Assembly: GCA_903831255.1 (NCBI GenBank)
Contig: CAIKWZ010000009.1
Coordinates: 1-64,000, forward strand
Origin: an uncultured Alphaproteobacteria bacterium
GTDB taxonomy: Bacteria; Pseudomonadota; Alphaproteobacteria; Caulobacterales; Hyphomonadaceae
Length of the DNA: 64,000 nucleotides
Reading direction: 5' to 3'
Part shown: positions 8,491 through 23,155 of the stretch, piece after piece
Numbering within the stretch: position 1 is the first letter of the stretch
Layout of the letters: the number at the start of each line of letters is the position of its first letter
The notes under the pieces: generated by a model
The model's input: the letters and a program-made list of their open reading frames with translations, nothing else
Database searches by the model: none
What the model was told of the DNA's origin: nothing
Made by a program: the position numbers and the translations under genes

Positions 8491-9576
8491 ATGGAGGTCA
8501 TTGAAGGGCAGGCGAACGCAGAGGCGGAGCACGTCGTCGCGAATGGAGGGCGATCGGTTCAGGGGCGCGATGTGCTGGCGGCCATTCCTGTTCTGAACGA
8601 GGCGTCCCATATCGAGACATGCCTTCGGGATCTTCTGGTCGGGGATGATCGTCTGGCGGACGTTCTGTTCGTTGTGGCCGACGGCGGCAGCACGGATGGA
8701 ACGCCTGATCTCGTGAGAGAGCTGATGAAGGTCTATCCGAATCTGCGCCTGGTCGAGAATCCCGCTCGTTTGCAATCCGCCGCGGTCAATCTTGTCGCCC
8801 GGCGATTTTCCGAGGATCGACGCGTTCTGGTCCGTTGCGATGCCCATGCCCTTTATCCACCCGGCTATATAATGACGGTCGCCGACAGCCTGGTTCGCCA
8901 CGGGGTTGAGTCCCTCGTCACACCGATGGATGCGATCGGTCAGACCTGCTTTCAGAAGGCGAATGCGCTCATCGTCGACACGCCGCTTGGATCCGGCGGT
9001 TCCGCCCATCGCGGAGGACGACGATCAGGCTTTGTCGACACGGGGCATCATGCCGGCTTTGATCTTCGTTCGTTTCTTGAGATCGGCGGTTATGACGAGA
9101 CCTTCTCGCACAATGAGGACGCAGAGTACGACCGCCGGCTGCGAGCCGCGTCCGGTCGCATCTTTCTCGATGCGGAGATCCGGCTTCAGTATTTTCCCCG
9201 TTCAGGCGCCAAGGCGCTTGCGCGTCAGTACTACAATTACGGTCGGGGGCGGGCGCGTACTCTTCTGAAGCACAGGGACGTCCCGCGCGCCCGGCAGATG
9301 ATCCCGCCTTTTGTCCTTCTCGTCTGCTGTCTCAGTCTGGCGATTTCACCTCTATGGCCATGGAGCCTTTCGGCTCCCGCCGGTTATGTCGCCGCCCTTT
9401 CGTGCGCGTCGATCTGGGGCGCGCTGAAGCTGGGCTCGCCTTGCGGATTGTTTGCCGGGCCCGCCTCCGGGATCATGCATATGGCCTGGGCGGCAGGGTT
9501 CTTCCGGCAGGCCGCGCTCCTCGGTGCGCGCTCCGGGCGCTCCGCCGCCGGGGTCTCATCCCCGGCCTCTCGCTGA
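8491..9576 (+). CDS. Glycosyltransferase family 2, ExoA-like
   Basis: A 361-aa GT-A glycosyltransferase. Near residue 30 the nucleotide-sugar binding segment AAIPVLNEASHIETCL is seen, followed by DGGSTDGT, a DAHALYPPGY segment that fits the metal-binding DXD region, and GGYDETFSHNEDAEYDRRLR, the acceptor/catalytic region. Two hydrophobic helices follow near the C-terminus (PPFVLLVCCLSLAIS and a Gly/Ala-rich one). This layout matches ExoA-type beta-glucosyl/galactosyl transferases of succinoglycan-like pathways. A strong GGGAGGAG precedes the ATG. It is likely co-transcribed with the membrane-protein gene upstream. Sugar specificity is not readable. Confidence 0.88.
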   Translation: MEVIEGQANAEAEHVVANGGRSVQGRDVLAAIPVLNEASHIETCLRDLLVGDDRLADVLFVVADGGSTDGTPDLVRELMKVYPNLRLVENPARLQSAAVNLVARRFSEDRRVLVRCDAHALYPPGYIMTVADSLVRHGVESLVTPMDAIGQTCFQKANALIVDTPLGSGGSAHRGGRRSGFVDTGHHAGFDLRSFLEIGGYDETFSHNEDAEYDRRLRAASGRIFLDAEIRLQYFPRSGAKALARQYYNYGRGRARTLLKHRDVPRARQMIPPFVLLVCCLSLAISPLWPWSLSAPAGYVAALSCASIWGALKLGSPCGLFAGPASGIMHMAWAAGFFRQAALLGARSGRSAAGVSSPASR

Positions 9577-9661: not shown

Positions 9662-10288
9662 CTGAGCGCTCCGCCTCTATCCCGTCTTGATGTCACGGCT
9701 GAGGAAGCCGCCCGGATCCGCGCGGCTGTCCGCTCCGCGGATCTGTCCCTGCTGGGGCCTCATCAGGTTCGTGCTGGAGCGGAGCATGTGGACGGGCTGA
9801 TCGCTCTCTTCAAAGACACGGCCGTTTCCGATCCCATCTACGATCTCCCGCGACCTTTCACTGTCGAGGTCATAGGGCGGTGGGTGGATGAGGCCCGCAA
9901 ACGCCGGGAGGCTGGTGAGGCGCTGCTGGCTGTCAGCCTCGATGAGAGGGGTCAGGTGGCGGGCTATTCCTACTTCACGGTCTGGCCCGAGCTGTCGGCG
10001 GCGGAAATTGCAGGCGCCCGCCGGGCGGATCTTCAGAACAGCGGCGAAGGCGGGCGCGGAGCTGCGCGAAGTTTCGGGTGGATGTTTGAGCATCTCGGGG
10101 TGCGTCTGATCGGGCTCACAGCCTCCCTCGACAATATACGGTCCGCCCGTGTGATCGAGGCTGCGGGCTTCGCTCCCATGGGCGAGCGGCGCAGCGTTCG
10201 GCCCGACGGCTCCGAGCGCCGGTCACGTTACTGGGAGATGACCCGGGAGAGCTGGCGCGCACGCGCCGTTCGGTCAGAAGAACGTTGA
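9662..10288 (+). CDS. GNAT-family N-acetyltransferase, probable CTG start
   Basis: A 208-aa protein if translation begins at CTG 9662; 166 aa from the first conventional codon (GTG 9788). The longer form is preferred because the segment PHQVRAGAEHVDGLIALF is the usual first beta-strand and helix of a GNAT domain and lies upstream of the GTG. AAARSFGWMFEHLGVRLIGL-like core residues and the C-terminal NIRSARVIEAAGFAPMGERR motif, the acetyl-CoA/loop region of RimJ-like enzymes, are present. It acetylates an unknown amine, perhaps a sugar precursor given the polysaccharide context. Its 3' end overlaps the convergent small gene by 15 bases. Confidence 0.7.
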   Translation: MSAPPLSRLDVTAEEAARIRAAVRSADLSLLGPHQVRAGAEHVDGLIALFKDTAVSDPIYDLPRPFTVEVIGRWVDEARKRREAGEALLAVSLDERGQVAGYSYFTVWPELSAAEIAGARRADLQNSGEGGRGAARSFGWMFEHLGVRLIGLTASLDNIRSARVIEAAGFAPMGERRSVRPDGSERRSRYWEMTRESWRARAVRSEER

Positions 10289-10642
10289 TTTGCGTTCGCT
10301 GATCTTTGACGAGGCTCTGCGAAAGAGCATATCCACGAGCTCTTCGGTGGTCTTTCCTCTGACATCGACCGAGGTCGCCAGATTATTCTCGCGCAGAACG
10401 CGCCGGATTTCATTCGGCTTCAACCCGGAGAAGACCGAATAGAATTTGGATTTCGAACCGGAGGCGGCGAGGAGATAGGGGTTCGCCAGATCAGCCTTGA
10501 GTTCGTCTCCGAACACCACTTCGCCACCCAGCGCGCGCGTGAGACGCTCGGCCAGCTTCGGGTTTGAACGAACTTCCGCACGAAGCTCGTCAAAGAAGCG
10601 GTCGAGATACTCCGCGGGGGTCAGTCTCTTATCTTCTGCCAT
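10274..10642 (-). CDS. Small helical partner of ParA, SAP-like C-terminus
   Basis: A 122-aa, charged, mostly helical protein with no signal or membrane helix. The C-terminal half contains GLKPNEIRRVLRENNLATSV followed by KTTEELVDMLFRRA. This pattern of two short helices with a conserved Leu spacing resembles SAP/Rho-N-like helical domains that bind nucleic acid or proteins; that reading is tentative. It overlaps the upstream parA gene by 22 bases, indicating translational coupling, and is the last gene of a four-gene run with a polymerase-like protein and a glycosyltransferase. It is probably the ParA adaptor or cargo factor. Family unnamed. Confidence 0.68.
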   Translation of the reverse strand: MAEDKRLTPAEYLDRFFDELRAEVRSNPKLAERLTRALGGEVVFGDELKADLANPYLLAASGSKSKFYSVFSGLKPNEIRRVLRENNLATSVDVRGKTTEELVDMLFRRASSKISERKSTFF

Positions 10643-11541
10643 GTCGCGCCTGTTCTCTGGCCAAGAAAGTCGGTGAAGCGTTCTGCAAGCCGTCGGACGT
10701 CCGTTCGGACGCCGCCATACTTTCCCTTGAATGTGTTGTAGCTGTCGGGAGCGGCCCGGTCCATCGCGTTGAGGACATGCACCGATTCCGGGATGACGGG
10801 TCCGAACCAGCGATCTTTCAGGTAGATGTCCCGCAGGTCTGCAACGATCTGGCGCGAATAGCGCGTATCCCGGAAACGCGTGATCAGGATGAAATTTCGG
10901 GACGGCAGGTCAGGCGCGATGAAGCGTCCTACCCACTCAGAAAACTGCTTGGTTCCCCATGTCGATACGCTGTCGGCGATGGTCGGCGTGAGGAATACAT
11001 CGGCGATCGACAGGCCTGCTCGCGCGAGGGGCGAGAGGTGAGGCGGGCAGTCCAGAAGGATCACGTCGTAAAGCGGCAGGAGGGGCTCGAAGGCCGCTCG
11101 AAAATGCTTTGCCAGGGCTTCGGACAGCGTCGTGGGAGTGCCGGATTTTCCGTACCACTCCTCCTCGAGGGTCAGTTCCGACATGCGCAGCTTCGGATGC
11201 GACGGCAGAATGGAGATCCATCCCTGCCGTTCGTCCTGCTCCTCGGCGATGCGGAGTTCTTCCAGGGTCACCGCATTGGGCATGATGAACGGCGCTGCCG
11301 ATGGCGGGGCGCCCGCCATGAACTGGGCGAGCAGATGGTGTCCGCCCTTTCCCTGTTCGGAGGCGTCCTGGACGCCCTCTTCGGTGAGGAGCATCTGGCT
11401 CGAGTTGGCCTGTGGATCGAGATCGATCACAAGAACATGCATGCCGTAGAAGTAGGCGAGGCCGTCGGCCAGCATGACGGTGGTTGTCGACTTGCCCACG
11501 CCTCCTTTCAGGTTGGCGATCGCTGCGGTGATAGCTGTCAT
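10621..11541 (-). CDS. ParA-family ATPase within polysaccharide operon
   Basis: A 306-aa ParA/MinD-superfamily ATPase. The deviant Walker A motif KGGVGKST is at residues 12-19, with both signature lysines. Switch I/A' VIDLDPQANSS is near 38-48 and Walker B DVILLDCPPHLSPL is in the middle. Such proteins form ATP-dependent dimers that bind DNA or membrane and position plasmids, chromosomes or protein machines. No ParB or parS-like gene is adjacent. Instead it overlaps the polymerase-like gene by 4 bases and the small helical gene by 22. It is not the chromosomal ParA by context. A role in placing or controlling the polysaccharide machinery is inference. Confidence 0.9.
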   Translation of the reverse strand: MTAITAAIANLKGGVGKSTTTVMLADGLAYFYGMHVLVIDLDPQANSSQMLLTEEGVQDASEQGKGGHHLLAQFMAGAPPSAAPFIMPNAVTLEELRIAEEQDERQGWISILPSHPKLRMSELTLEEEWYGKSGTPTTLSEALAKHFRAAFEPLLPLYDVILLDCPPHLSPLARAGLSIADVFLTPTIADSVSTWGTKQFSEWVGRFIAPDLPSRNFILITRFRDTRYSRQIVADLRDIYLKDRWFGPVIPESVHVLNAMDRAAPDSYNTFKGKYGGVRTDVRRLAERFTDFLGQRTGATWQKIRD

Positions 11542-12893
11542 GGGGCGACTCCGCTCCGGGTCAGGTCCGGAGCCGTTGGTAGGCCGGCGTCGGACCCCGG
11601 TGATGGAAATGATCGGATCGGATCTCTAACCGGGGAGCGTCCGCCCGCACGCTGCGGGATATCTGAGCCTGCAGCGATTCCAAGAAGGAACACATAAAGC
11701 CATCCGATGACGGGCGTGTCGAGGGAGGAGGATGTCAACGCCCAGAGGAGCATCGCCGCGCCCGTCGCCAGAGCCATGCGCGAAGCGCTGCGTGCGAAGC
11801 GGGGCGAGGCCTGGTTCGGAGTGATCGGCTGGTGAATGAAGATAAGTCCCGCCGTCATTATCACCGTCCCCAGGATGCCCCACTCCACCAGATGATGGAT
11901 GAGGGCGTTTCGCACGCCCCCGGGAGATGCGAGGATCGATGCATTGCTCAGGGTCATCGACCGATCGGCAATTTCCCGAATGGACCCCGGGCCATGGCCC
12001 GTCATAAGCGCTTCCGGAACGGCCCCCAGATAGATGCTCCAGCGTTGAGTGGCGCTGGTGGCGAAGCTGAATGGTTCTGTTCCAAGCGTTTCCATCGGAA
12101 GGAATGCGGCTGCAAGGCTCGCCAGGCCCAGCGCCGCGGCGACGGCCAGACCCGGAACGGATCTCCTGACTTTCCGATCTTCGGCGGGGCGCATGAAAAT
12201 CAGCAGACAGATTCCCGCGAGGGCGGCCAGCACGCCTTGCGCGGATGCGCACAGAATAAGTCCTGTCAGGGATACGCCAGCCAGCAGAAGCGCGCCGACG
12301 CCGCGGTGAATGAGTTCCTCCGTCCAGATCACCGGCGTGATGTCGAGCCTTGGCGCTCGTCCGTGAATCTGAAGGAGGCGCCCGGCCGCCACGATCAGGA
12401 ACAGCGTGAAAAGAAGCGGGATGTCGGCCGGCGATGCGAATGACCCCAGAAGCGTGTCCCGTGGAGGGAGTGTCCCGTTTGATGCGGTGACCAGGCGCAC
12501 GCAACAGAACAGGAATGATGTCCAGATGACGGCGTCCACTGCAAAGTCGGCGTCGACGGGCCTGCGGGCTGTGAGCGCCCCGATCAGCCAGATGCCGCCT
12601 CCCGCCAGGCCTGCCGCCGCCGCAGGCGCCGCCGGCTCGCCATGGATGACGATCAGAAGGGTCGCCGCCAGTGTTGCAAGAACGGCTGCAACGGTCAGTC
12701 CCGGAGTGATGAACGAGGGTCCCGTGAGCGCTGCGACGAGGACGGTGAGGACAAGAAAGGCGCCTGACATCGACAGGCTGATGAGAGGGGAGGATGCGCC
12801 GCCCAGAAGCTCTGCCGCCATAAGGAGAACCGCCAGCGCGAGAACCGGTACGGCGATCCGTCGCTTGAGACGAGAGGACCTCCTGGCGCTCAT
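11538..12893 (-). CDS. Polysaccharide polymerase/O-antigen ligase-like membrane protein
   Basis: A 451-aa multi-pass membrane protein with roughly ten hydrophobic segments starting right after an arginine-rich N-terminus. A longer loop in the second half contains GHGPGSIREIADRS and HHLVEWGILGTVIM, resembling the periplasmic loop of Wzy/WaaL proteins, where a conserved histidine acts on undecaprenyl-linked sugars. It would polymerise or ligate repeat units at the outer face of the inner membrane. It overlaps the glycosyltransferase gene upstream and parA downstream by 4 bases each, so all are co-translated. The family is recognised by topology and loop motifs, not by strong sequence identity. 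Confidence 0.75.
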   Translation of the reverse strand: MSARRSSRLKRRIAVPVLALAVLLMAAELLGGASSPLISLSMSGAFLVLTVLVAALTGPSFITPGLTVAAVLATLAATLLIVIHGEPAAPAAAAGLAGGGIWLIGALTARRPVDADFAVDAVIWTSFLFCCVRLVTASNGTLPPRDTLLGSFASPADIPLLFTLFLIVAAGRLLQIHGRAPRLDITPVIWTEELIHRGVGALLLAGVSLTGLILCASAQGVLAALAGICLLIFMRPAEDRKVRRSVPGLAVAAALGLASLAAAFLPMETLGTEPFSFATSATQRWSIYLGAVPEALMTGHGPGSIREIADRSMTLSNASILASPGGVRNALIHHLVEWGILGTVIMTAGLIFIHQPITPNQASPRFARSASRMALATGAAMLLWALTSSSLDTPVIGWLYVFLLGIAAGSDIPQRAGGRSPVRDPIRSFPSPGSDAGLPTAPDLTRSGVAP

Positions 12894-14068
12894 CGCGCGC
12901 GTTCCGCGGCTGTCAGCAGGGATGTCCCATGCAGCGGCGTCGTGGAGAGACCGAGGGCGCCTTCAATCACGCCGCGAAGCTCGCCCTCGGGCTGGATGAA
13001 CACGTCGTCCGGCAGAGACAGAAGCTTCTCTCGCCGTTCAGCGATGACAGCTCTTGTTTCAATCAGCTGCGCGATAAGCTGGGGGAGAGATAGGCCAAGG
13101 TCCTCGGGAAGCGTGAAACCGGCTCCCACTGTCTCAATCCATTCCGCTGTCCGGGTTCCCTGTGGGGCTATCGCCGGAACGCCGTAATATCCGCCCTCGT
13201 AGAGGCGGTTGGGAAGAAGCCAGAGCGAATTGAAGCCGGCTTCCATGAAGTCTCCCGCCCAGACAACGTCCAGACCGGCATAGATCCGGCTCAGATCCTC
13301 CGGCGCCTTGTAGCGACCATGAAAGGTCATGCCTGGCGTTTCTGAAACACGCTCATGAAAGTCAGGGATCTCAGTGAGAGCCGGCATTCCATGGAGGTCT
13401 ATGTGGATTGCATCGCCGAACTGACGGACAAGCGCTCTCATCAAGTCGAGGCTTCGTGCGCATCGAAGTACGCCCACCCACCCGATGCGAAGCGGACCTG
13501 TGCGCTCCGGGGTCTGTCCCGGGCGAGGACCGTAACCGGTTCCCGGCGCCATCCGGTTCTCAACCAGGACGGCCGGGCAGATGTCTCCGTAACGCGCTTC
13601 GAAATGGCGACGGATGAAGGCGTCTGATGAAACGACGAGGCGCCTGCAGCTCCTGAGGAGGGACTTTTCGATACCCCTCATCGCCGATCCGATCGGATCG
13701 GATCGGGTCAGAAGCCGATGAACGTCCAGACATTCATAAACGACCGGTGTGGACAGTCCCGCCCAGGACCTGGCGAGAAAGGCCGTCGCCAGCATGTCCA
13801 GATTTCGCGCATAGATCACGTCCGAGGACGCCAGCAGACCCTTCTGGCCCGCGGCGATGCGGGCGCCCGCAAAGATGCGAGCAAGTCTCTGGAGGTAGTT
13901 TGCGTCGAAGGTCCTTCCAAGATCGATGTCTGTTTCGTCATCGCGCGCCGTATCGCTCCGGCGCATCATGAACCGCACCACCTCGAGGCCGTCCCGCCGA
14001 AACCCCTCCACGCGCCGCCGCACCGCGGCGTCGCCCGCATCATGTCCGAAAAAGGCGATACGCATCAT
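12890..14068 (-). CDS. Glycosyltransferase, GT1/GT4 type
   Basis: A 392-aa GT-B glycosyltransferase taken from the first of two adjacent ATG codons at 14068; a GTG at 14092 is possible. The N-terminus MMRIAFFGHDAGDAAVRRRV and FMMRRSD segment are typical of an alphaproteobacterial exopolysaccharide glycosyltransferase group. The C-terminal half has RIGWVGVLRCARSLDLM and WLLPNRLYEGGYYGVPAIAP, the donor-nucleotide region. It acts in the cytoplasm on a lipid-linked acceptor. It is the first gene of the minus-strand run shared with the polymerase-like protein and ParA, and is divergent from the phosphatase gene across 249 bases that presumably hold promoters for both directions. Confidence 0.82.
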   Translation of the reverse strand: MMRIAFFGHDAGDAAVRRRVEGFRRDGLEVVRFMMRRSDTARDDETDIDLGRTFDANYLQRLARIFAGARIAAGQKGLLASSDVIYARNLDMLATAFLARSWAGLSTPVVYECLDVHRLLTRSDPIGSAMRGIEKSLLRSCRRLVVSSDAFIRRHFEARYGDICPAVLVENRMAPGTGYGPRPGQTPERTGPLRIGWVGVLRCARSLDLMRALVRQFGDAIHIDLHGMPALTEIPDFHERVSETPGMTFHGRYKAPEDLSRIYAGLDVVWAGDFMEAGFNSLWLLPNRLYEGGYYGVPAIAPQGTRTAEWIETVGAGFTLPEDLGLSLPQLIAQLIETRAVIAERREKLLSLPDDVFIQPEGELRGVIEGALGLSTTPLHGTSLLTAAERAR

Positions 14069-14317
14069 CACCGGCGGATCTGCAAAAGCCACGCCCCGTC
14101 GCAGGAGGCGATCGGGCAGCCGGAACGGGTTATGCCTGTGCTTCGGGGCCGCTGTAACCGTCTTTCTCTTTCGGGTTGAAGGCTTTTTTCTTTTCCATTC
14201 GTTTGACGCAGTATCGCATGTTCGCCATGCTGGACCGTCGCCGTCTCCGAGGGTAAGGGGGCGAAGGGCGTCTTCAGGGGCGGTCCTCGCCGGCCAGCGA
14301 CGTCAAAGGGTGATCGG

Positions 14318-15238
14318 GTGACCATCGGTCTGTCTCGTCTTCGGGAAGCGGCCGCCGACGCCATCCGGTCCCTCCTGGAGGATTTCGGAGCGTGGGTGGA
14401 TAACCTTGCCCGACGCATGGCTCGGCCCCTGCCTGAGCGCCGCCCGGTGTGGACGCCTGGTCGGACCGCCTCGATTCCTGACGGACGGCGGGTTTACGCG
14501 GTGGGCGATATCCATGGACGGGCCGACCTTTTGTTCCGTTTGCTCAAGGTCATCGATGAGGATGTCAGCCAGGGCGGCTTCTCCGGAAAACCTGTCCTCG
14601 TTTTTCTGGGAGACTATGTCGACCGGGGATTTCAGTCGCGAGATGTCCTGGATGTGCTCATCGCGCGAGACATGGCGCGGTATGAGACGTACTTCCTTAA
14701 AGGAAACCATGAGGCGGCGATGCTGCAGTTTCTTGAGGATTCCCGGGTTGGACCCAGATGGGCCGAGTTCGGAGGGGTGGAGACGCTGGTCTCGTACGGC
14801 GTACGTCCCCCGCGCAACCGGACCAGTCCTGAGGAGTGGGAGAGGGCGCGCGAGGAGCTGGCCGGTCTGGCGCCGCCCTCTCATCTGGAGTTTCTCAAGG
14901 CCCTTCATCTGAGCGCGCGGATCGGGGATTACCTTTTCGTCCATGCAGGGGTGAAGCCTGGCGTTTCGCTCGAGGATCAGGCGGAACGGGATCTTCTGTG
15001 GATCCGAAATGAGTTTCTGGAAGATCGTCAGCCTTTTGAGGCTGTCATTGTGCATGGTCACACGCCTGCTACGAGGCCCTATCGGGATTCCCGTCGCATC
15101 GGTATCGATACGGGAGCTTATCTCAGCGGCCGGCTGACGGCTGTGCGCTTTCAGGGTGAGAGTGTGGAGTTTTTCATGACAGGTTCACGTGTCGAGACCG
15201 GGCCTGCGGCTCAGGGACAGTCGGGGGGGCGAGGATGA
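14318..15238 (+). CDS. PPP-family metallophosphoesterase (Ser/Thr phosphatase type)
   Basis: A 306-aa protein with the three hallmark motifs of PPP phosphatases in order: GDIHGRADLL (residues 63-72), GDYVDRG (98-104) and GNHE (129-132). The later metal histidines sit in FVHAGV and HGHTPATRP. It would hydrolyse phosphoserine/threonine, or possibly phosphotyrosine, in the cytoplasm. GTG start with a weak RBS. It overlaps the Wza-like gene as ATGA, so the two are translationally coupled. A PPP phosphatase within a polysaccharide cluster recalls PssZ of Rhizobium leguminosarum. A role opposing the Wzc-like kinase downstream is plausible but inferred. Confidence 0.88.
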   Translation: MTIGLSRLREAAADAIRSLLEDFGAWVDNLARRMARPLPERRPVWTPGRTASIPDGRRVYAVGDIHGRADLLFRLLKVIDEDVSQGGFSGKPVLVFLGDYVDRGFQSRDVLDVLIARDMARYETYFLKGNHEAAMLQFLEDSRVGPRWAEFGGVETLVSYGVRPPRNRTSPEEWERAREELAGLAPPSHLEFLKALHLSARIGDYLFVHAGVKPGVSLEDQAERDLLWIRNEFLEDRQPFEAVIVHGHTPATRPYRDSRRIGIDTGAYLSGRLTAVRFQGESVEFFMTGSRVETGPAAQGQSGGRG

Positions 15239-15870
15239 TCAGCATCAAGAAGGGAATTCTGGCGTTCGCCAGCGCGGTCGTTCTCTGGGCCTGCGCAACG
15301 CCGGCCCCCGCTGATCCGGCGCCCAGAGCGCCCGAGCAGGTTTCCGCTGCGCCCCAGGCGGGGCGTTCAGCCAGTCCCTCCGGGGCGCCAGCCGGACCTG
15401 CGGCGGGTCTTGCCGAGTATCGTCTGGACAGCGGCGATCAACTCCGGATCACGGTGTTCGGCGAGCCTGACCTTTCGGGCAATTTCATTGTCGACGGGCA
15501 GGGCGTGATCTCAATGTCGCTGATCGGCGAGGTCACGGCTAAAAATCTCACCATTCGCGAACTTCAGCGTCTCATCGAGGTCAAGCTGAAGGACGGCTTT
15601 GTCCGTGAGCCGCAAGTGAGTGCGGAGGTGATGAATTACCGACCGTATTACATCCTCGGCGAAATCAACAAACCTGGCGAATATCCATATATATCAGGAC
15701 TCACTGTGATGAACGCTATCGCCAGCGCCGGGGATTTCACCTACCGCGCTGACAAGCGGCGGATCTTTATCAAGAGCACAGACAGTCCGGATGAGCGTGA
15801 GCTGACGCTGACCCCTTCGACGCTCGTCAAGCCAGGGGACACAATCCGGATCCGGGAGCGCTTTTTCTGA
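15235..15870 (+). CDS. Polysaccharide export lipoprotein, Wza/HfsD-like
   Basis: A 211-aa outer-membrane export protein. The signal peptide ends at cysteine 20 (LWAC; the -2 Trp is unusual for a lipobox), followed by a Pro/Ala-rich linker. The polysaccharide export domain begins at YRLDSGDQLRITVFGEPDLSG and contains the GEVTAKNLTIRELQRLIEVK helix. A SLBB-like beta-grasp follows (YYILGEINKPGEYPYISGLT). The protein is short, with a single SLBB-like unit and no long C-terminal helix, so the barrel protein encoded downstream may supply the outer-membrane passage. It is coupled to the phosphatase gene through an ATGA overlap. Confidence 0.9.
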   Translation: MISIKKGILAFASAVVLWACATPAPADPAPRAPEQVSAAPQAGRSASPSGAPAGPAAGLAEYRLDSGDQLRITVFGEPDLSGNFIVDGQGVISMSLIGEVTAKNLTIRELQRLIEVKLKDGFVREPQVSAEVMNYRPYYILGEINKPGEYPYISGLTVMNAIASAGDFTYRADKRRIFIKSTDSPDERELTLTPSTLVKPGDTIRIRERFF

Positions 15871-15974: not shown

Positions 15975-16325
15975 ATGGGTCGGCGTTGCGAAGCGGTGCA
16001 GTCAGCTTGGGCGAGATCTTCGTTCTGTCGGCTTGCTTGCGGAGCGGCTTTTGTGACCCTCCTGGTCGCCGGCCTGTGTCCCGCGACGGCACAATCTGCG
16101 TCAGGCCCTGAGAGATGTCCGACTTCCGCGGACCTCTCCGTGCAGGAGGTCTGTGCGGGGGGGGGGCGGGATGGATCAGGGAGCCTCGCCATGAAGCCGA
16201 CCGGAGGGGCTGAGGACATTCTCCGGGAGGCTGTGTCTGAGGCGAGGAGCCGGACGAACGGCCTTCGGTTCAAGGTTGAGCCGCCGCCGAGACGTCTCAC
16301 GGAAGGGGAGAGGCCGAGGACTTGA
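15975..16325 (+). CDS. Small secreted protein containing a G10 tract
   Basis: A 116-aa open frame in the 591-base gap between the export lipoprotein and the barrel gene. A hydrophobic stretch (about residues 20-38) ending PATAQS looks like a signal peptide, and the C-terminal half contains an amphipathic helix EDILREAVSEARSR. A run of ten G (16157-16166) lies in the reading frame, encoding Gly-Gly-Gly. A slip of one base would change the frame. No family recognised and the RBS is weak, so coding status is not certain. A weak CCGCC/GGCGG hairpin followed by GTCTTT (15911-15930) precedes it and might terminate the upstream gene. Confidence 0.45.
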   Translation: MGRRCEAVQSAWARSSFCRLACGAAFVTLLVAGLCPATAQSASGPERCPTSADLSVQEVCAGGGRDGSGSLAMKPTGGAEDILREAVSEARSRTNGLRFKVEPPPRRLTEGERPRT

Positions 16326-16461: not shown

Positions 16462-17706
16462 ATGAAATCCGTTGTTTCCTCGCTGGCGCTGGCGTTAGCC
16501 CTCGCCGGTTTCGCTGCGGCTCCGGCAGTCGCCCAGGCAACCTCTGGTCAGTTCGATCGTAATCGCTATGTGTCAGCCGCCGAGCGTCCGCAGCCCGAAT
16601 TTGACCCGCTCCCCCTTCGCGCCGGAGCCTTCGAAATCCGGTCTCGTCTCGGGCTCGCGGTTCGATCCAACGACAATATCTATGCAGAGGCCTCCAACAC
16701 GACCGAGGATGTGATCATCGGAGCGACCCCGGAGCTTGAGCTCAAGAGCACCTGGTCGGTGCATGAGATTTCCGCGGGCGTCCGTGCGGATCATCGGGAG
16801 TATCTCGATCAGGGCGAGGAATCCTCTACCGATTTCACCGGTTTCCTGCGCGGTCGGCTTGATGTGACCCGCGAGTTCTGGGTGGGCGGGTCAATCGACG
16901 GCGGGCGGATCACTGAGCAGCGCTATGAGCCGGCTGCGCGCACAGGCGCCGATCTGACCGAATATGATCGCGCGGACACCGCCCTTCTGGCGGCTTTCCG
17001 TCGGGATCGTTTTCAGGTTGAGGGACGCCTGGGTTCGGCGTCCAGCGATTTCGACACTGCTCAGAGTTTCCGTGATGTGACTGAGACTTATGCGGCCGGA
17101 CGGGCGTCCTACGCCATCTCTCCTGACGTCGCGGTTTATGTCCAGGGACGGGTATCCGACCAGGATTATGACTTCGTCGGCTCAGCTCTCAATCCCAGCC
17201 GTGACGGTCGTCGCACCACGGGTCAGATCGGCCTCAATTTCGAGCTCGCGGCGCCGTTCCGGGGGGATATCGCTTTTGGCTATGTGGAAGAAGAGAAGGA
17301 TGCGCTTTCGCGTCCTGACACGAACGGAATGAGTGTCGACGGCCGCCTCGAATGGTTCCCGACCCAGCTCACAACGCTTACGTTCACCGGCCAGCGCGAC
17401 ATCTTCGATCCCGGTCTGGTTAATTCGAGCACCGCCTACAATACGTCGTTCGGGGTACGCATCGATCATGAGCTTCGACGCAATGTGCTGCTGTTCGGAG
17501 AGGCCCGGTCCCGGAGCATCGACTTCCAGGATATCGATCGTACCGACGATCAGGGTGAGTTCGGGATTGGTCTGGGGTACAAACTCAACCGCCGTGCGCG
17601 CCTCGATCTGTCGTACATGATGCGAACTCAGGATTCGAGCGGCCTTCAGTCGGAGAGAGACTTCGATCAGAACATCCTCAGCGCAGCTCTCGTGATCTAT
17701 CCTTGA
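16462..17706 (+). CDS. Outer-membrane beta-barrel protein of polysaccharide cluster
   Basis: A 414-aa protein with a signal peptide (cleavage near AAPAVAQA, about residue 25) and then regular alternating beta-strands with aromatic girdle residues, ending LVIYP. This is the pattern of the outer-membrane beta-barrel group (BBP2-like) often found beside Wza/Wzc genes in alphaproteobacteria, where it is thought to serve as the polysaccharide exit porin. SNDNIYAEASN near residue 70 is typical of the first extracellular region. RBS AGGGG/GAAGG lies upstream. The gene stands between the export lipoprotein and the autokinase, in the order expected of an export operon. Confidence 0.8.
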   Translation: MKSVVSSLALALALAGFAAAPAVAQATSGQFDRNRYVSAAERPQPEFDPLPLRAGAFEIRSRLGLAVRSNDNIYAEASNTTEDVIIGATPELELKSTWSVHEISAGVRADHREYLDQGEESSTDFTGFLRGRLDVTREFWVGGSIDGGRITEQRYEPAARTGADLTEYDRADTALLAAFRRDRFQVEGRLGSASSDFDTAQSFRDVTETYAAGRASYAISPDVAVYVQGRVSDQDYDFVGSALNPSRDGRRTTGQIGLNFELAAPFRGDIAFGYVEEEKDALSRPDTNGMSVDGRLEWFPTQLTTLTFTGQRDIFDPGLVNSSTAYNTSFGVRIDHELRRNVLLFGEARSRSIDFQDIDRTDDQGEFGIGLGYKLNRRARLDLSYMMRTQDSSGLQSERDFDQNILSAALVIYP

Positions 17707-17778: not shown

Positions 17779-20052
17779 GTGAACATGCCCTACTCACCGG
17801 ACGGGTCTTCGGTTTATCCGGCGGGTGGACTTGCGCCCTCGGAGGCTCCGGGCGGCCTTGATCTGCAGTCCGTCATCCGGGCTGTCCGTCGTCGACTTAA
17901 TCTCATGGCAGGCGTGTTTCTGTGCGTCTTCGCCCTGGCGACGCTGTTCACTCTGACCCTGAAGCCGCGTTACACGGCCACCTCGAGCGTGATCGTCAAC
18001 ACTCAGAGCGCCAAGGTCATCGATATCGGAGCGGTGATGCAGGGCCTTGCGCCCAACAGCGCTGTCATCGACACCGAGGCGGAGATCCTCAAGAGCCGAT
18101 CGCTTCTGTCAAAGGTGGTCAAGCGGCTGGATCTGGTGGAGAATCCTGAGTTCAACCCGGCTCGGGTTCCTCCCTCCGGAATGGATCAGTTCAAGAACGG
18201 CCTCAAGTCCTTCATCAAATCGGTGCTGCCTGGCGGCGGGGATGAGGCGACAGATGAGGCGCTGAGCGAAGAGGACATCCTCAAAGCCGAACAGGCTGAA
18301 CTCGACGGTGTGATCGCCGCGGTCCAGGGGGCGATTTCGATCAATCGGCTCGGTCCGACCTACATTATTGAAATCAATGCGACGAGTTCCACGCCCGACA
18401 TGGCGGCGCTGCTCGCGAATACGGTCGCGGATGTCTATCTCGACAATCAGCTGGAGACGAAGTTCGATGCGACGCGTCGGGCCAAGTCGTGGCTGGATGA
18501 TCGTGTTGTCGCCTTGCGTGACGAGGTGCGTGAAGCGGAGAGCAAGGTCGAGGCTCACAGGGCGCGTACGGGCCTCCTGTCTGCGGAAGGTTCAACCCTG
18601 ACCGAGCAGGCTATCCGGGATCTCAATGCGCAGCTGACCGTGCAGCAGGCTGATCTGGCCGAGAAGCGGGCCAGACTTCAGAATGTTCAGAACCAGCTGG
18701 CCGCCGGCGGCGGGGTCGATACGATTTCGGAGGCTCTCGCGTCAGGGAATATCAGCGCCCTTCGTGTTCAGCAGGCAGAGATCCTTCGTCGGAAGGCGGA
18801 TCTCAGGGCGCGCTATCTGGACGGCCATCCTGATGTCATCCGCGTTCTCAGCGAGGAGCGGGACGTCGAACGCCAGATCAGCGCCGAACTGCAGAGAATT
18901 GTGTCCGCCCTTGAGCAGGACGTTCTGGTCTCCCGCGAGCGGGTGAATGCGCTTCAGTCACGTCTGAATTCGCAGAAGGGCGAGCTTGCGGTCAATAACC
19001 GCGCCAGTGTCGTGCTGAACGAACTTCAGAGGGACGCGGACGCCAGCCGGGCGCTTTATGAGGAGTTTCTCAACCGGTTCAAGGAGACGAGCGAGCTTGA
19101 CGGCATCACGGAGGCCGATGCGCTGATCAACGCCTATGCGGCGACGCCGACGGGCCCAAGCTTTCCCAACACCACGCTCAACCTTGCGCTGGGCTTTATT
19201 CTCGGCGCCGCACTCGCCGGTCTCGCCGGACTGATTGTGGAGCTTATGGATAGCTTCTTCTCATCTCCTGAGGATGTGGAGCAGTACACGGGGGCTCCCT
19301 ATCTGGTTTCTGTGCCGCTGCTGGCGCCTTCGGGAACCTTCGCAAAGGCCCGGATCAAGCCTGCGGATTACCTTCTTGAAAAGCCTCATTCCGGCTACGC
19401 GGAAGCCTTCCGGAACCTCCGGGCCTCCATTCTCTTCGCAGATGTCGATCATCCGGCGAAAACGGTCGCAGTCGTCTCTTCTCTGCCGGATGAGGGAAAG
19501 ACGAGCATGACCTACTGTCTCGGCCGAATGGCCGCCATGTCAGGCACGAAGACGATCGTGATTGATGGGGACATCCGGCGCCGCCAGCTCACCGAGGTTT
19601 CCGGCGTTCCCGCCGAGGCCGGTCTTCTTGAGTACCTTTTCGGCGAAAGCCGGCTGTCTGATGTGATTGTGACGGACGAGGCGACCGGGCTTCATATTCT
19701 TCCGCTGGCCGACCGTAAGCATACGCCGAAGGATGTCTTTGGCAGCCGCGCGTTCGATGCGCTGATGACCATGCTGAAACAGACCTATGATCTCATTATC
19801 ATCGACACGGGCCCTGTTCTGCTCATGGCTGAGACCCGCGTGGTGACGCGCAAGGTGGACCAGGTTGTCGTCGCCGCCCGCTGGCGCAAGACCAATCGGG
19901 CGACGCTCCGGGAAACCCTCAAAATCCTGCGCGAGTTCAAGGCCAATGTGGCGGGTGTGGCGCTGACCTTTGTCGATCTCCGGCGGCGCGGCCAGTACGC
20001 CTACACAGCCGCCGATTACAAAGCCTACCGGAAGTATTACACGGATGACTGA
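17779..20052 (+). CDS. Polysaccharide co-polymerase with tyrosine autokinase, Wzc-like
   Basis: A 757-aa inner-membrane protein. A cytoplasmic N-terminus is followed by TM1 (about residues 45-65, GVFLCVFALATLFTLTL), a Wzz domain and a long periplasmic coiled-coil region (residues about 240-430). TM2 (LNLALGFILGAALAGLAGLI) leads into the BY-kinase domain. The kinase has Walker A SLPDEGKTSMT (lysine near 574), Walker A' VIDGDIRRRQL and Walker B LIIIDTGPVLLM. The C-terminus carries a tyrosine cluster (YAYTAADYKAYRKYY) for autophosphorylation. It sets chain length and couples polymerisation to export. GTG start with GGAGA eight bases upstream; ATG at 17785 is possible. Confidence 0.92.
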   Translation: MNMPYSPDGSSVYPAGGLAPSEAPGGLDLQSVIRAVRRRLNLMAGVFLCVFALATLFTLTLKPRYTATSSVIVNTQSAKVIDIGAVMQGLAPNSAVIDTEAEILKSRSLLSKVVKRLDLVENPEFNPARVPPSGMDQFKNGLKSFIKSVLPGGGDEATDEALSEEDILKAEQAELDGVIAAVQGAISINRLGPTYIIEINATSSTPDMAALLANTVADVYLDNQLETKFDATRRAKSWLDDRVVALRDEVREAESKVEAHRARTGLLSAEGSTLTEQAIRDLNAQLTVQQADLAEKRARLQNVQNQLAAGGGVDTISEALASGNISALRVQQAEILRRKADLRARYLDGHPDVIRVLSEERDVERQISAELQRIVSALEQDVLVSRERVNALQSRLNSQKGELAVNNRASVVLNELQRDADASRALYEEFLNRFKETSELDGITEADALINAYAATPTGPSFPNTTLNLALGFILGAALAGLAGLIVELMDSFFSSPEDVEQYTGAPYLVSVPLLAPSGTFAKARIKPADYLLEKPHSGYAEAFRNLRASILFADVDHPAKTVAVVSSLPDEGKTSMTYCLGRMAAMSGTKTIVIDGDIRRRQLTEVSGVPAEAGLLEYLFGESRLSDVIVTDEATGLHILPLADRKHTPKDVFGSRAFDALMTMLKQTYDLIIIDTGPVLLMAETRVVTRKVDQVVVAARWRKTNRATLRETLKILREFKANVAGVALTFVDLRRRGQYAYTAADYKAYRKYYTDD

Positions 20053-22165: not shown

Positions 22166-22502
22166 TAGCCAAACCCGGGCCTGCGACGCAAGGCGAGACC
22201 GGGTGCTTCGCCTCATGGTTGAAGTCCGGGTCGATTATCGTTGTGATTTCGCCCGCCTCGGGAAACCATTTGAGGCATCCCCGCGATTGTCCCAAGACGA
22301 TCCACGTTGGCATCGGCTCGAAACCCTCTGGTTCAGACAGCCACACGATTTCCGTGGCGGTCTTGGGGAATTTCCACCGTCGATGGAGGGAGAAGCTGAG
22401 CTCGGTGGCATGGCTGTTGCTGCCATCCAGCGACGCTTCGGGCGAGAAAGGCGGATCGGATGAAGAACGGTCAAGGCGTCGAGGCTGAAAGGATCGCCTC
22501 AT
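22161..22502 (-). CDS. Hypothetical 113-aa protein upstream of sseA
   Basis: The frame has codon third positions dominated by G/C, like the proven genes around it, whereas the overlapping plus-strand frame does not. This supports coding on the minus strand. The protein has no signal or membrane helix. Its middle is tryptophan- and charge-rich (HRRWKFPKTATEIVWL, GCLKWFPEAGEITTI). No family recognised. Its start region overlaps the divergent priming-transferase gene by 43 bases, and it ends 51 bases before sseA, so it could be the first gene of that operon. The RBS is weak. It could also be a decayed gene fragment. Confidence 0.42.
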   Translation of the reverse strand: MRRSFQPRRLDRSSSDPPFSPEASLDGSNSHATELSFSLHRRWKFPKTATEIVWLSEPEGFEPMPTWIVLGQSRGCLKWFPEAGEITTIIDPDFNHEAKHPVSPCVAGPGLAR

Positions 22503-23155
22503 CGTCAGGATTGCGCTTCGATTCTGCAGTGATGTCGCCGGTTTATTCGAGCCTGGCGAAGCGCTCCATGGATCTTGTGCTGGCGTCTCTGGCGTTCGTG
22601 TTTCTGCTGCCCCTCATGGCTGTCATTTGTCTCGGGATCCGACTGAGCGGGCGCGGACCGGTGATCTTCACGCAGAAGCGCTGCGGCGCCAACGGGCGCT
22701 TTTTCAACTGCTACAAGTTTCGGACGATGCGAACCGATGCGGCCGAGCGCCTTGAGGCCCTGCTTTCATCGGATCCGGCCGCAGCGGCCGAGTGGGCTCT
22801 CTACCAGAAGCTGAGGCTGGACCCCCGGATCACTCCGATCGGACGTTTGCTCAGGCGGACCAGTCTGGATGAGCTTCCCCAGCTGATCAACATTCTTCGC
22901 GGAGAGATGTCGATCATCGGACCCCGGCCCATCACTTCGGGCGAGATTTTCCGATATGGGACAGATTTTGCTTACTATACGGCGGTTCGGCCCGGGGTTC
23001 TGGGGCTGTGGCAGGTCAATGGCAGAAATTCCCTGACCTACGACCAGCGTGTCCGGATGGATGTCGAATATGTCCGCACCTGGTCGATGAGCAAGGATCT
23101 GAGGATTCTGGCGAAGGCGGTCCCCGCCGTGATGTTCGGCTCGGACGCCTACTAA
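22460..23155 (+). CDS. Polyprenyl-phosphate sugar-1-phosphate transferase (priming enzyme)
   Basis: A 231-aa bacterial sugar transferase of the short, single-helix (WbaP C-terminal/PglC-like) type. One hydrophobic segment (about residues 36-56, VLASLAFVFLLPLMAVICLG) is followed by the catalytic domain with VIFTQKRCGANGRFFNCYKF, the acidic RRTSLDELPQL pair, NILRGEMSIIGPRP and VRPGVLGLWQVNGRN. It loads the first sugar phosphate onto undecaprenyl phosphate to start polysaccharide synthesis at the inner membrane. AAAGGCGGA precedes the ATG; a start at the later ATG (residue 25) is possible. It belongs functionally to the polysaccharide region although metC/sseA separate it. Confidence 0.93.
   Translation: MKNGQGVEAERIASSSGLRFDSAVMSPVYSSLAKRSMDLVLASLAFVFLLPLMAVICLGIRLSGRGPVIFTQKRCGANGRFFNCYKFRTMRTDAAERLEALLSSDPAAAAEWALYQKLRLDPRITPIGRLLRRTSLDELPQLINILRGEMSIIGPRPITSGEIFRYGTDFAYYTAVRPGVLGLWQVNGRNSLTYDQRVRMDVEYVRTWSMSKDLRILAKAVPAVMFGSDAY

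Follow-up and report, generated by a model that had tools for sequence, protein, structure and literature searches.

A PPP-family phosphatase gene beside a short OPX gene in alphaproteobacterial polysaccharide loci: a candidate counter-enzyme for the BY-kinase

Described systems and the focal locus

Capsules, slime and related polymers are under the control of BY-kinases, whose tyrosine phosphorylation can cycle only with the help of a phosphatase. In the Wzb-Wzc and CpsB-CpsD systems the phosphatase gene lies in the OPX/kinase locus and its product is credited with resetting the BY-kinase. These two phosphatases are a cysteine LMW-PTP (Wzb) and a PHP enzyme (CpsB). A phosphatase of another family has been connected with exopolysaccharide (EPS) in Rhizobium leguminosarum, where PssZ is described, in the available text of three papers (PMC6071215, PMC6628131, PMC7020829), as a PPP-family protein of 263 amino acids that has the three family motifs, is encoded in the EPS cluster and leaves the mutant without EPS when lost. 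An EPS-linked PPP is thus already known, and the 2019 PssZ paper presents itself, in the text available, as the first to link such phosphatase activity to bacterial EPS synthesis. The pssZ named in the accessible part of a Sphingomonas paper (PMC11340318) is a different protein of the same name, in Caulobacter, and was set aside.

Two further systems offer points of comparison. In Myxococcus xanthus the translocon is described in the available text as a composite of an OPX protein and a beta-barrel, the D1D2 OPX protein EpsY working with the barrel EpsX (PMC9601211). The plant phosphatase RLPH2, as far as the sections available state, prefers phosphotyrosine (PMC12817480) and has MAP kinases as its known substrates (PMC535813, PMC12817480); the plant Rhilphs were named for their closeness to alphaproteobacterial PPPs and were grouped with them in 2004 (PMC535813). 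The same source, in the part available, holds that the specificity of bacterial-like PPPs is not predictable without experiment (PMC535813).

The window, by which we mean the whole stretch of 64,000 nucleotides that was analysed, carries a gene for a PPP-family metallophosphatase of 306 amino acids (14318-15238, plus strand, GTG start; open reading frame list and Pfam), followed by one for a short OPX polysaccharide export lipoprotein of 211 amino acids (15235-15870, plus strand; Pfam and sequence). In the OPX protein Pfam finds Poly_export at residues 60-132, SLBB at 138-179 and nothing else up to the end of the chain at residue 211, and a lipobox-like LWAC can be read off the sequence. By its Pfam domains and sequence it has the make-up of a short (D1D2) OPX protein, with no outer-membrane-spanning domain and with a barrel gene nearby. 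The initial annotation had called it Wza-like, which is loose, the protein being short and a separate PF10082 barrel gene following it. The product of this barrel gene (16462-17706, plus strand; PF10082 BBP2_2, 1.1e-68 by Pfam), a putative outer-membrane beta-barrel, is the likely partner of the OPX protein. Between the two genes lies a small open reading frame of 116 amino acids with a signal-peptide-like start (15975-16325, plus strand), for which a clear relative was found in L031 only; several relatives have poorly conserved and somewhat larger open reading frames in a similar place.

As the initial annotation had stated, a BY-kinase gene follows in the same direction, 1.9 kb past the OPX stop (17779-20052, plus strand; Pfam and motif patterns). 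The kinase is fused to a polysaccharide co-polymerase, with Wzz, GNVR and AAA_31 matches, has its cytoplasmic kinase domain at about residues 520-757 and ends in a tyrosine cluster, QYAYTAADYKAYRKYYTDD (19993-20049, plus strand; translation). BY-kinases were recognised by Walker A, A' and B motifs and a C-terminal tyrosine cluster, with crude patterns taken from general knowledge, and the focal protein shows all three Walker patterns, with six tyrosines among its 30 C-terminal residues. Two opposite-strand open reading frames in the window separate the kinase gene from that of a WbaP-type polyprenyl-phosphate sugar transferase (22460-23155, plus strand; Pfam).

Upstream of the phosphatase gene, and on the opposite strand in the window, are genes for a divergent GT4-like glycosyltransferase (12890-14092, minus strand) and a Wzy/O-antigen-ligase-like membrane protein (11538-12893, minus strand), both below the Pfam cut-off and both syntenic in close relatives, and for a ParA/BcsQ-like ATPase (10621-11541, minus strand) that is present in 12 of the 14 loci L031-L044 and may help to position the export machine. 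An open reading frame of 122 amino acids (10274-10642, minus strand) lies beside the ATPase gene within the polysaccharide region, and a family 2 glycosyltransferase gene (8491-9576, plus strand; Pfam) is again syntenic in close relatives.

A short OPX protein, a separate outer-membrane barrel and a co-polymerase are likewise found together in the EpsY/EpsX system as its available text describes it, with the difference that in M. xanthus the kinase proposed as partner, WzeX, is a protein of its own, whereas the focal kinase is fused to the co-polymerase (PMC9601211). The word 'phosphatase' is absent from the main text of that paper, and the titles and abstracts of the open-licence literature searched contain no report of this phosphatase-OPX pair.

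The one Pfam domain found in the phosphatase is Metallophos (2e-16). Its translation contains the three PPP motifs reported initially, GDIHG, GDYVDRG and GNHE, which match the family patterns GDXHG, GDXXDRG and GNH(E/D), as well as VHAG and VHGHTP, and D64, H66, D99, N130 and H131 are invariant in the A1 phosphatases. The fourth motif, given for bacterial-type PPPs as (I/L/V)D(S/T)G in the accessible text of PMC535813, reads IDTG in the focal protein, and a slightly relaxed pattern occurs in 37/37 rows of the class A phosphatases described below. The AlphaFold model has a mean pLDDT of 88.2 overall and a good catalytic domain at about residues 53-291, preceded by a helix predicted with low confidence at residues 3-35. 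In all seven proteins examined this N-terminal stretch, whose sequence varies, shows a helical hydrophobic moment on the high side (shuffle fractions 0.018 to 0.1); that the helix may touch the membrane is offered as a lead only.

Ranked by Z, the closest solved fold is that of RLPH2 (5vjv; 24.1, 2.7 A over 222 residues, 30% identity), followed by PnkP (22.5), a putative Ap4A phosphatase (21.4), lambda PP (20.8), ApaH (20.1) and a Shewanella tyrosine phosphatase (19.8). The order by Foldseek E-value differs, with lambda PP first and RLPH2 fourth, and likeness of fold to RLPH2 does not by itself establish specificity. Assignment to the Rhilphs was rejected on two features. The Rhilph motif LXXAXPXXH, between GNH(E/D) and HAG, appears in the focal protein as LAGLAPPSH, with L for A (exact in 4/37 class A rows, relaxed in 36/37), and Rhilphs have no N- or C-terminal extension, whereas about 50 residues stand ahead of the focal catalytic domain. 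The insert of plant RLPH2 is also larger than that of the focal phosphatase.

Neighbours and co-occurrence of the phosphatase gene

The ATGA overlap between the two genes is real, the OPX ATG occupying 15235-15237 and the phosphatase TGA 15236-15238. Among 45 phosphatase-OPX rows, in which one locus and one gene pair (L022, L043) each appear twice, the overlap is found in three: the window, a 94% identical relative (L031) and L028. An in-frame GTG falls within the same four-base overlap in three more (L030, L034, L064), and the remaining rows show a gap or a different candidate start. This count, which reaches 6/45 when GTG starts are allowed, rules out ATGA as a means of coupling that is conserved; the translational coupling first proposed stands as an overlap at the focal locus, and what is general is adjacency on the same strand.

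Profile searches of 105 genomes of the focal family gave a PPP match in 101, an OPX match in 102 and a kinase match in 103, and the PPP matches were split into three score classes, A, B and C. Among the matches listed, the class A phosphatase, orthologous to the focal one (87 matches in 86 genomes), has an adjacent OPX gene in 80/87, of which 78 were found by the adjacency rule and two, the overlapping pairs of the window and its near twin, from coordinates; neighbour counts use the coordinates of the matches listed, with the weakest OPX and kinase rows left out. The seven exceptions are three g4 genomes with the genes apart or on different contigs, three genomes with no OPX match on the contig (G104, G069 and G073, the first two at contig ends) and G083, in which the OPX gene is 3.5 kb away. 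The class C paralogues, a control drawn from the same genomes, are near an OPX or BY-kinase gene in 0/44 among the matches listed, which are not all of the class; the Fisher test of OPX adjacency in class A against class C treats related genomes as independent.

The kinase was also considered as the conserved neighbour and ruled out, as it is the OPX gene that holds this place. Among the matches listed, a kinase gene lies within 6 kb downstream on the same strand for 28 of the 87 class A phosphatases, otherwise within 15 kb for 27, far away on the same contig for 8, and on another contig or not found for 24. The phosphatase gene of g5 genomes still adjoins the OPX gene, with the kinase gene on another contig, distant, or nearby on the opposite strand (L092, L093). 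All three genes are retained in the two-contig genome G033, where they are scattered or far apart, and close relatives of the focal locus are nearly uniform in arrangement; the cultured Henriciella aquimarina and Parvibaculum sedimenti also have this gene order.

When presence was set at 195 bits or more for the class A PPP and above 300 bits for the class A kinase, 85 of the 105 genomes had both, 17 had neither and three were discordant (G002, G101 and G052, each assembled in hundreds of contigs). Joint absence is spread over five of the ten genera of the focal family, and the phosphatase is present in 82/82 genomes with a class A OPX protein. Across the class as a whole (385 genomes; strong PPP at E <= 1e-45, kinase at E <= 1e-60), 98 genomes had both a strong PPP and a kinase, 55 the PPP only, 19 the kinase only and 213 neither, with a kinase profile that was built from PPP-bearing loci and may favour the kinases of such loci. 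In all four genome-size bands a kinase was found more often alongside a strong PPP match than alongside a weak one (17/25 vs 0/14, 18/34 vs 0/12, 35/55 vs 2/16 and 28/39 vs 8/16). Because the OPX adjacency of class A contrasts with that of the paralogues, because phosphatase and kinase are present and absent together, and because they co-occur at class level, a role of the phosphatase within this export system, as the initial annotation had proposed, is well supported by linkage and co-occurrence.

Among the matches listed, a second OPX gene lies no more than 15 kb away for 13 of the 19 in class B, and a second kinase gene for 14, suggesting a second pairing of a PPP with a polysaccharide kinase system. 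Loci L084-L088 have such a second OPX/BY-kinase cluster with its own class B PPP, and a WbaP-type gene stands beside it in four of the five. On a quick-method tree, built without L001-L017, which are duplicates, and without the short PPP rows, class B rows cluster apart from class A (supports 90-93, not starred), and the OPX-adjacent label changes 11 times against a shuffled mean of 40.6. Judged by coordinates, Hanks-type kinases are encoded no more than about 2.5 kb from at least 7 of the 44 class C PPPs listed (G007 C6, L097; G012 C1, L098; G021 C31, L099; and at least four more genomes), and Pfam confirmed the neighbour as a Hanks kinase at L099. Two PPP classes thus appear to be partnered with two kinds of kinase in the focal family.

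At class level 100 of about 150 PPP loci were listed, mostly the top ones with some rows skipped. An OPX, kinase or barrel gene lies within 10 kb in 47/100 (40/68 of those flanked by 8 kb or more on each side), in arrangements that vary, the PPP gene standing beside OPX, barrel, kinase or WbaP; the other 53/100 (28/68) have no such gene within 10 kb. That the latter are hidden glycan clusters was mostly ruled out in a sample of 30 flanking proteins from 18 loci, in which Pfam gave no match for nine, two-component proteins for five, HldE-like proteins for three, phosphodiesterases for two and other families, one case each, for the rest, with sugar-nucleotide-type genes in one locus (L056). Since these loci have no such gene and, where sampled, flanks mostly of other kinds, the wider PPP subfamily is not only a polysaccharide enzyme. 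PPP relatives at L191, L200 and L203 are close to HldE-like genes (PfkB plus cytidylyltransferase); HldE-like proteins have a role in ADP-heptose synthesis, and this neighbourhood is a possible link to LPS core synthesis. At L120, L165, L203 and L106 the neighbours of PPP relatives are PilS-like histidine kinases or response regulators that carry a Fis-type helix, which we take to resemble RegA/RegB.

Kinase tyrosines and other candidate substrates

The focal phosphatase is probably a dedicated part of an alphaproteobacterial polysaccharide system that combines an OPX protein of the short type with a PF10082 outer-membrane barrel and a BY-kinase co-polymerase. In the likeliest mechanism it would dephosphorylate the tyrosine cluster at the C-terminus of the kinase, which could then cycle during polymerisation and export, and the task that Wzb (LMW-PTP) or CpsB (PHP) performs in other systems would fall to a PPP fold related to the tyrosine-preferring RLPH2. 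That this PPP phosphatase does Wzb's job on the tyrosine cluster is a plausible reading that we hold tentatively, its tyrosine specificity and kinase substrate being proposed from sequence and a structural model. Linkage, co-occurrence, intact catalytic motifs and the kept kinase motifs and tyrosine cluster are evident in the sequences; the working role of the phosphatase in this pathway we infer. The initial annotation had named the kinase or a Ser/Thr-phosphorylated glycosyltransferase as a possible target. The kinase tyrosines are favoured as substrate by the RLPH2 fold match, the kept tyrosine cluster, the patchy occurrence of LMW-PTP and CpsB and the single weak Hanks-kinase match of the focal genome, none of which is proof.

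No tyrosine is found in the last 30 residues of 13 of 68 full-length kinases, and this loss proved mostly apparent, sequence having been added after the cluster; 15/68 miss at least one motif by the crude patterns used. All seven extended focal-family kinases examined keep the cluster ahead of the C-terminal extension, as do three class B kinases inspected, a set that does not include L086 and L088. Focal-family kinases with an extension past the cluster occur at L092-L096, L102 and L103, and the g5 kinase genes are also parted from the OPX gene.

Among the 105 focal-family genomes an LMW-PTP match occurs in 57 and a CpsB family match in one, and a search for CpsB in the focal genome found none. 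The LMW-PTP of the focal genome is nearest to a thioredoxin-type arsenate reductase (ArsC-like), below cut-off. LMW-PTP is missing from 42 of the 87 kinase-bearing genomes, 41 of which have the PPP phosphatase. A match to another PTP family, Y_phosphatase3, is found in 102/105 genomes, which rules out the notion that the focal family has no other tyrosine phosphatase; the focal genome has one weak match, an open reading frame of 222 amino acids with an HCKSGADR loop. Hanks kinases exceed the tool cut-off in 60/105 genomes and are strong (best E <= 1e-14) in 57.

Several observations count against the kinase as substrate. The phosphatase gene stays with the OPX gene and not with the kinase gene, which follows in the same orientation no more than 6 kb downstream for 28/87 among the matches listed. 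In family f136 the PPP gene adjoins a gene for a kinase-like co-polymerase that truly has no tyrosine cluster (L164; likewise L139, with one tyrosine) and is perhaps, judging by its sequence, a pseudokinase; L175 has the same adjacency at a contig end. At class level a strong PPP occurs without a kinase match in 55/153 genomes, and 53/100 PPP loci have no OPX, kinase or barrel gene near. To these may be added the near-universal Y_phosphatase3 (102/105), with its one possible tyrosine phosphatase in the focal genome, and the first place of lambda PP by Foldseek.

The last observation, lambda PP as top Foldseek match, also speaks for a Ser/Thr protein phosphatase acting on some other protein of the pathway, such as a glycosyltransferase, the export machinery or a regulator, and so do the keeping of the OPX rather than the kinase neighbour and the description of PssZ, in the available text, as a putative Ser/Thr phosphatase without which no EPS is made (PMC6071215). 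However, 36/86 phosphatase-bearing genomes have no strong Hanks match, the focal genome has one weak match (E 3.9e-5), and it is the other PPP class that lies near Hanks kinases in the focal family (at least 7/44 listed, with L099 checked by Pfam); we consider this alternative somewhat unlikely. We give less credence still to a regulator whose loss alters the transcription or signalling of surface polysaccharide and not the export machine directly. Such a regulator would agree with the wide transcriptome changes, pss genes included, reported for the PssZ mutant in the text available (PMC6628131) and with some class-level relatives beside response regulators or histidine kinases, but in the focal family the phosphatase gene is retained or lost along with the export genes and mostly sits directly beside them.

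A small molecule of polysaccharide synthesis (an Ap4A-like dinucleotide, a nucleotide sugar or another phosphate) is a quite improbable substrate; the fold does resemble ApaH and a putative Ap4A phosphatase, and there is weak NCBIfam similarity to PrpE and to the symmetrical Ap4A hydrolase model, but both equivalog cut-offs are missed widely (50.9 against 340 bits and 48.5 against 176 bits, respectively). An inherited accident of gene order with no functional link, to which shared descent and the near uniformity of close relatives would lend themselves, is hardly credible given that none of the 44 listed paralogue controls is near an OPX or kinase gene, that joint absence recurs in several genera, that the genes are retained when scattered, and that the association takes many arrangements across the class and recurs with a paralogue.

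Comparison with known phosphatases

What the present analysis adds to PssZ is a conserved and paralogue-controlled pairing of a PPP with a short-OPX/barrel/BY-kinase module across a family, a second pairing through the class B paralogue, and structural grounds for suspecting that the enzyme is specific for tyrosine. A PPP conserved as partner would close the counter-enzyme gap in the 42/87 kinase-bearing genomes without LMW-PTP, CpsB being almost absent; it would give PssZ a testable target, and it would tie the tyrosine preference of plant RLPH2 to bacterial relatives. It is possible that many Alphaproteobacteria have in this way a third kind of BY-kinase phosphatase, an RLPH2-related PPP instead of Wzb or CpsB, which may have been recruited on more than one occasion (classes A and B) and may be kept at the inner membrane by an amphipathic N-terminal helix.

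PssZ and the focal phosphatase are alike in being PPPs with three motifs encoded in an EPS cluster, a likeness of description; the first and third motifs of PssZ are given as SDVHG and GNHD, against GDIHG and GNHE in the focal protein. As described in the available text, PssZ comes without an OPX-adjacent, co-lost pair and without a substrate. With Wzb and CpsB the likeness is the presence of a phosphatase gene in an OPX/kinase locus, and the difference is that the enzyme here is a PPP metallophosphatase, in which a Pfam search found no PF01451, the LMW-PTP domain of the Wzb type. On the best reading, the focal phosphatase works like Wzb from outside Wzb's family.
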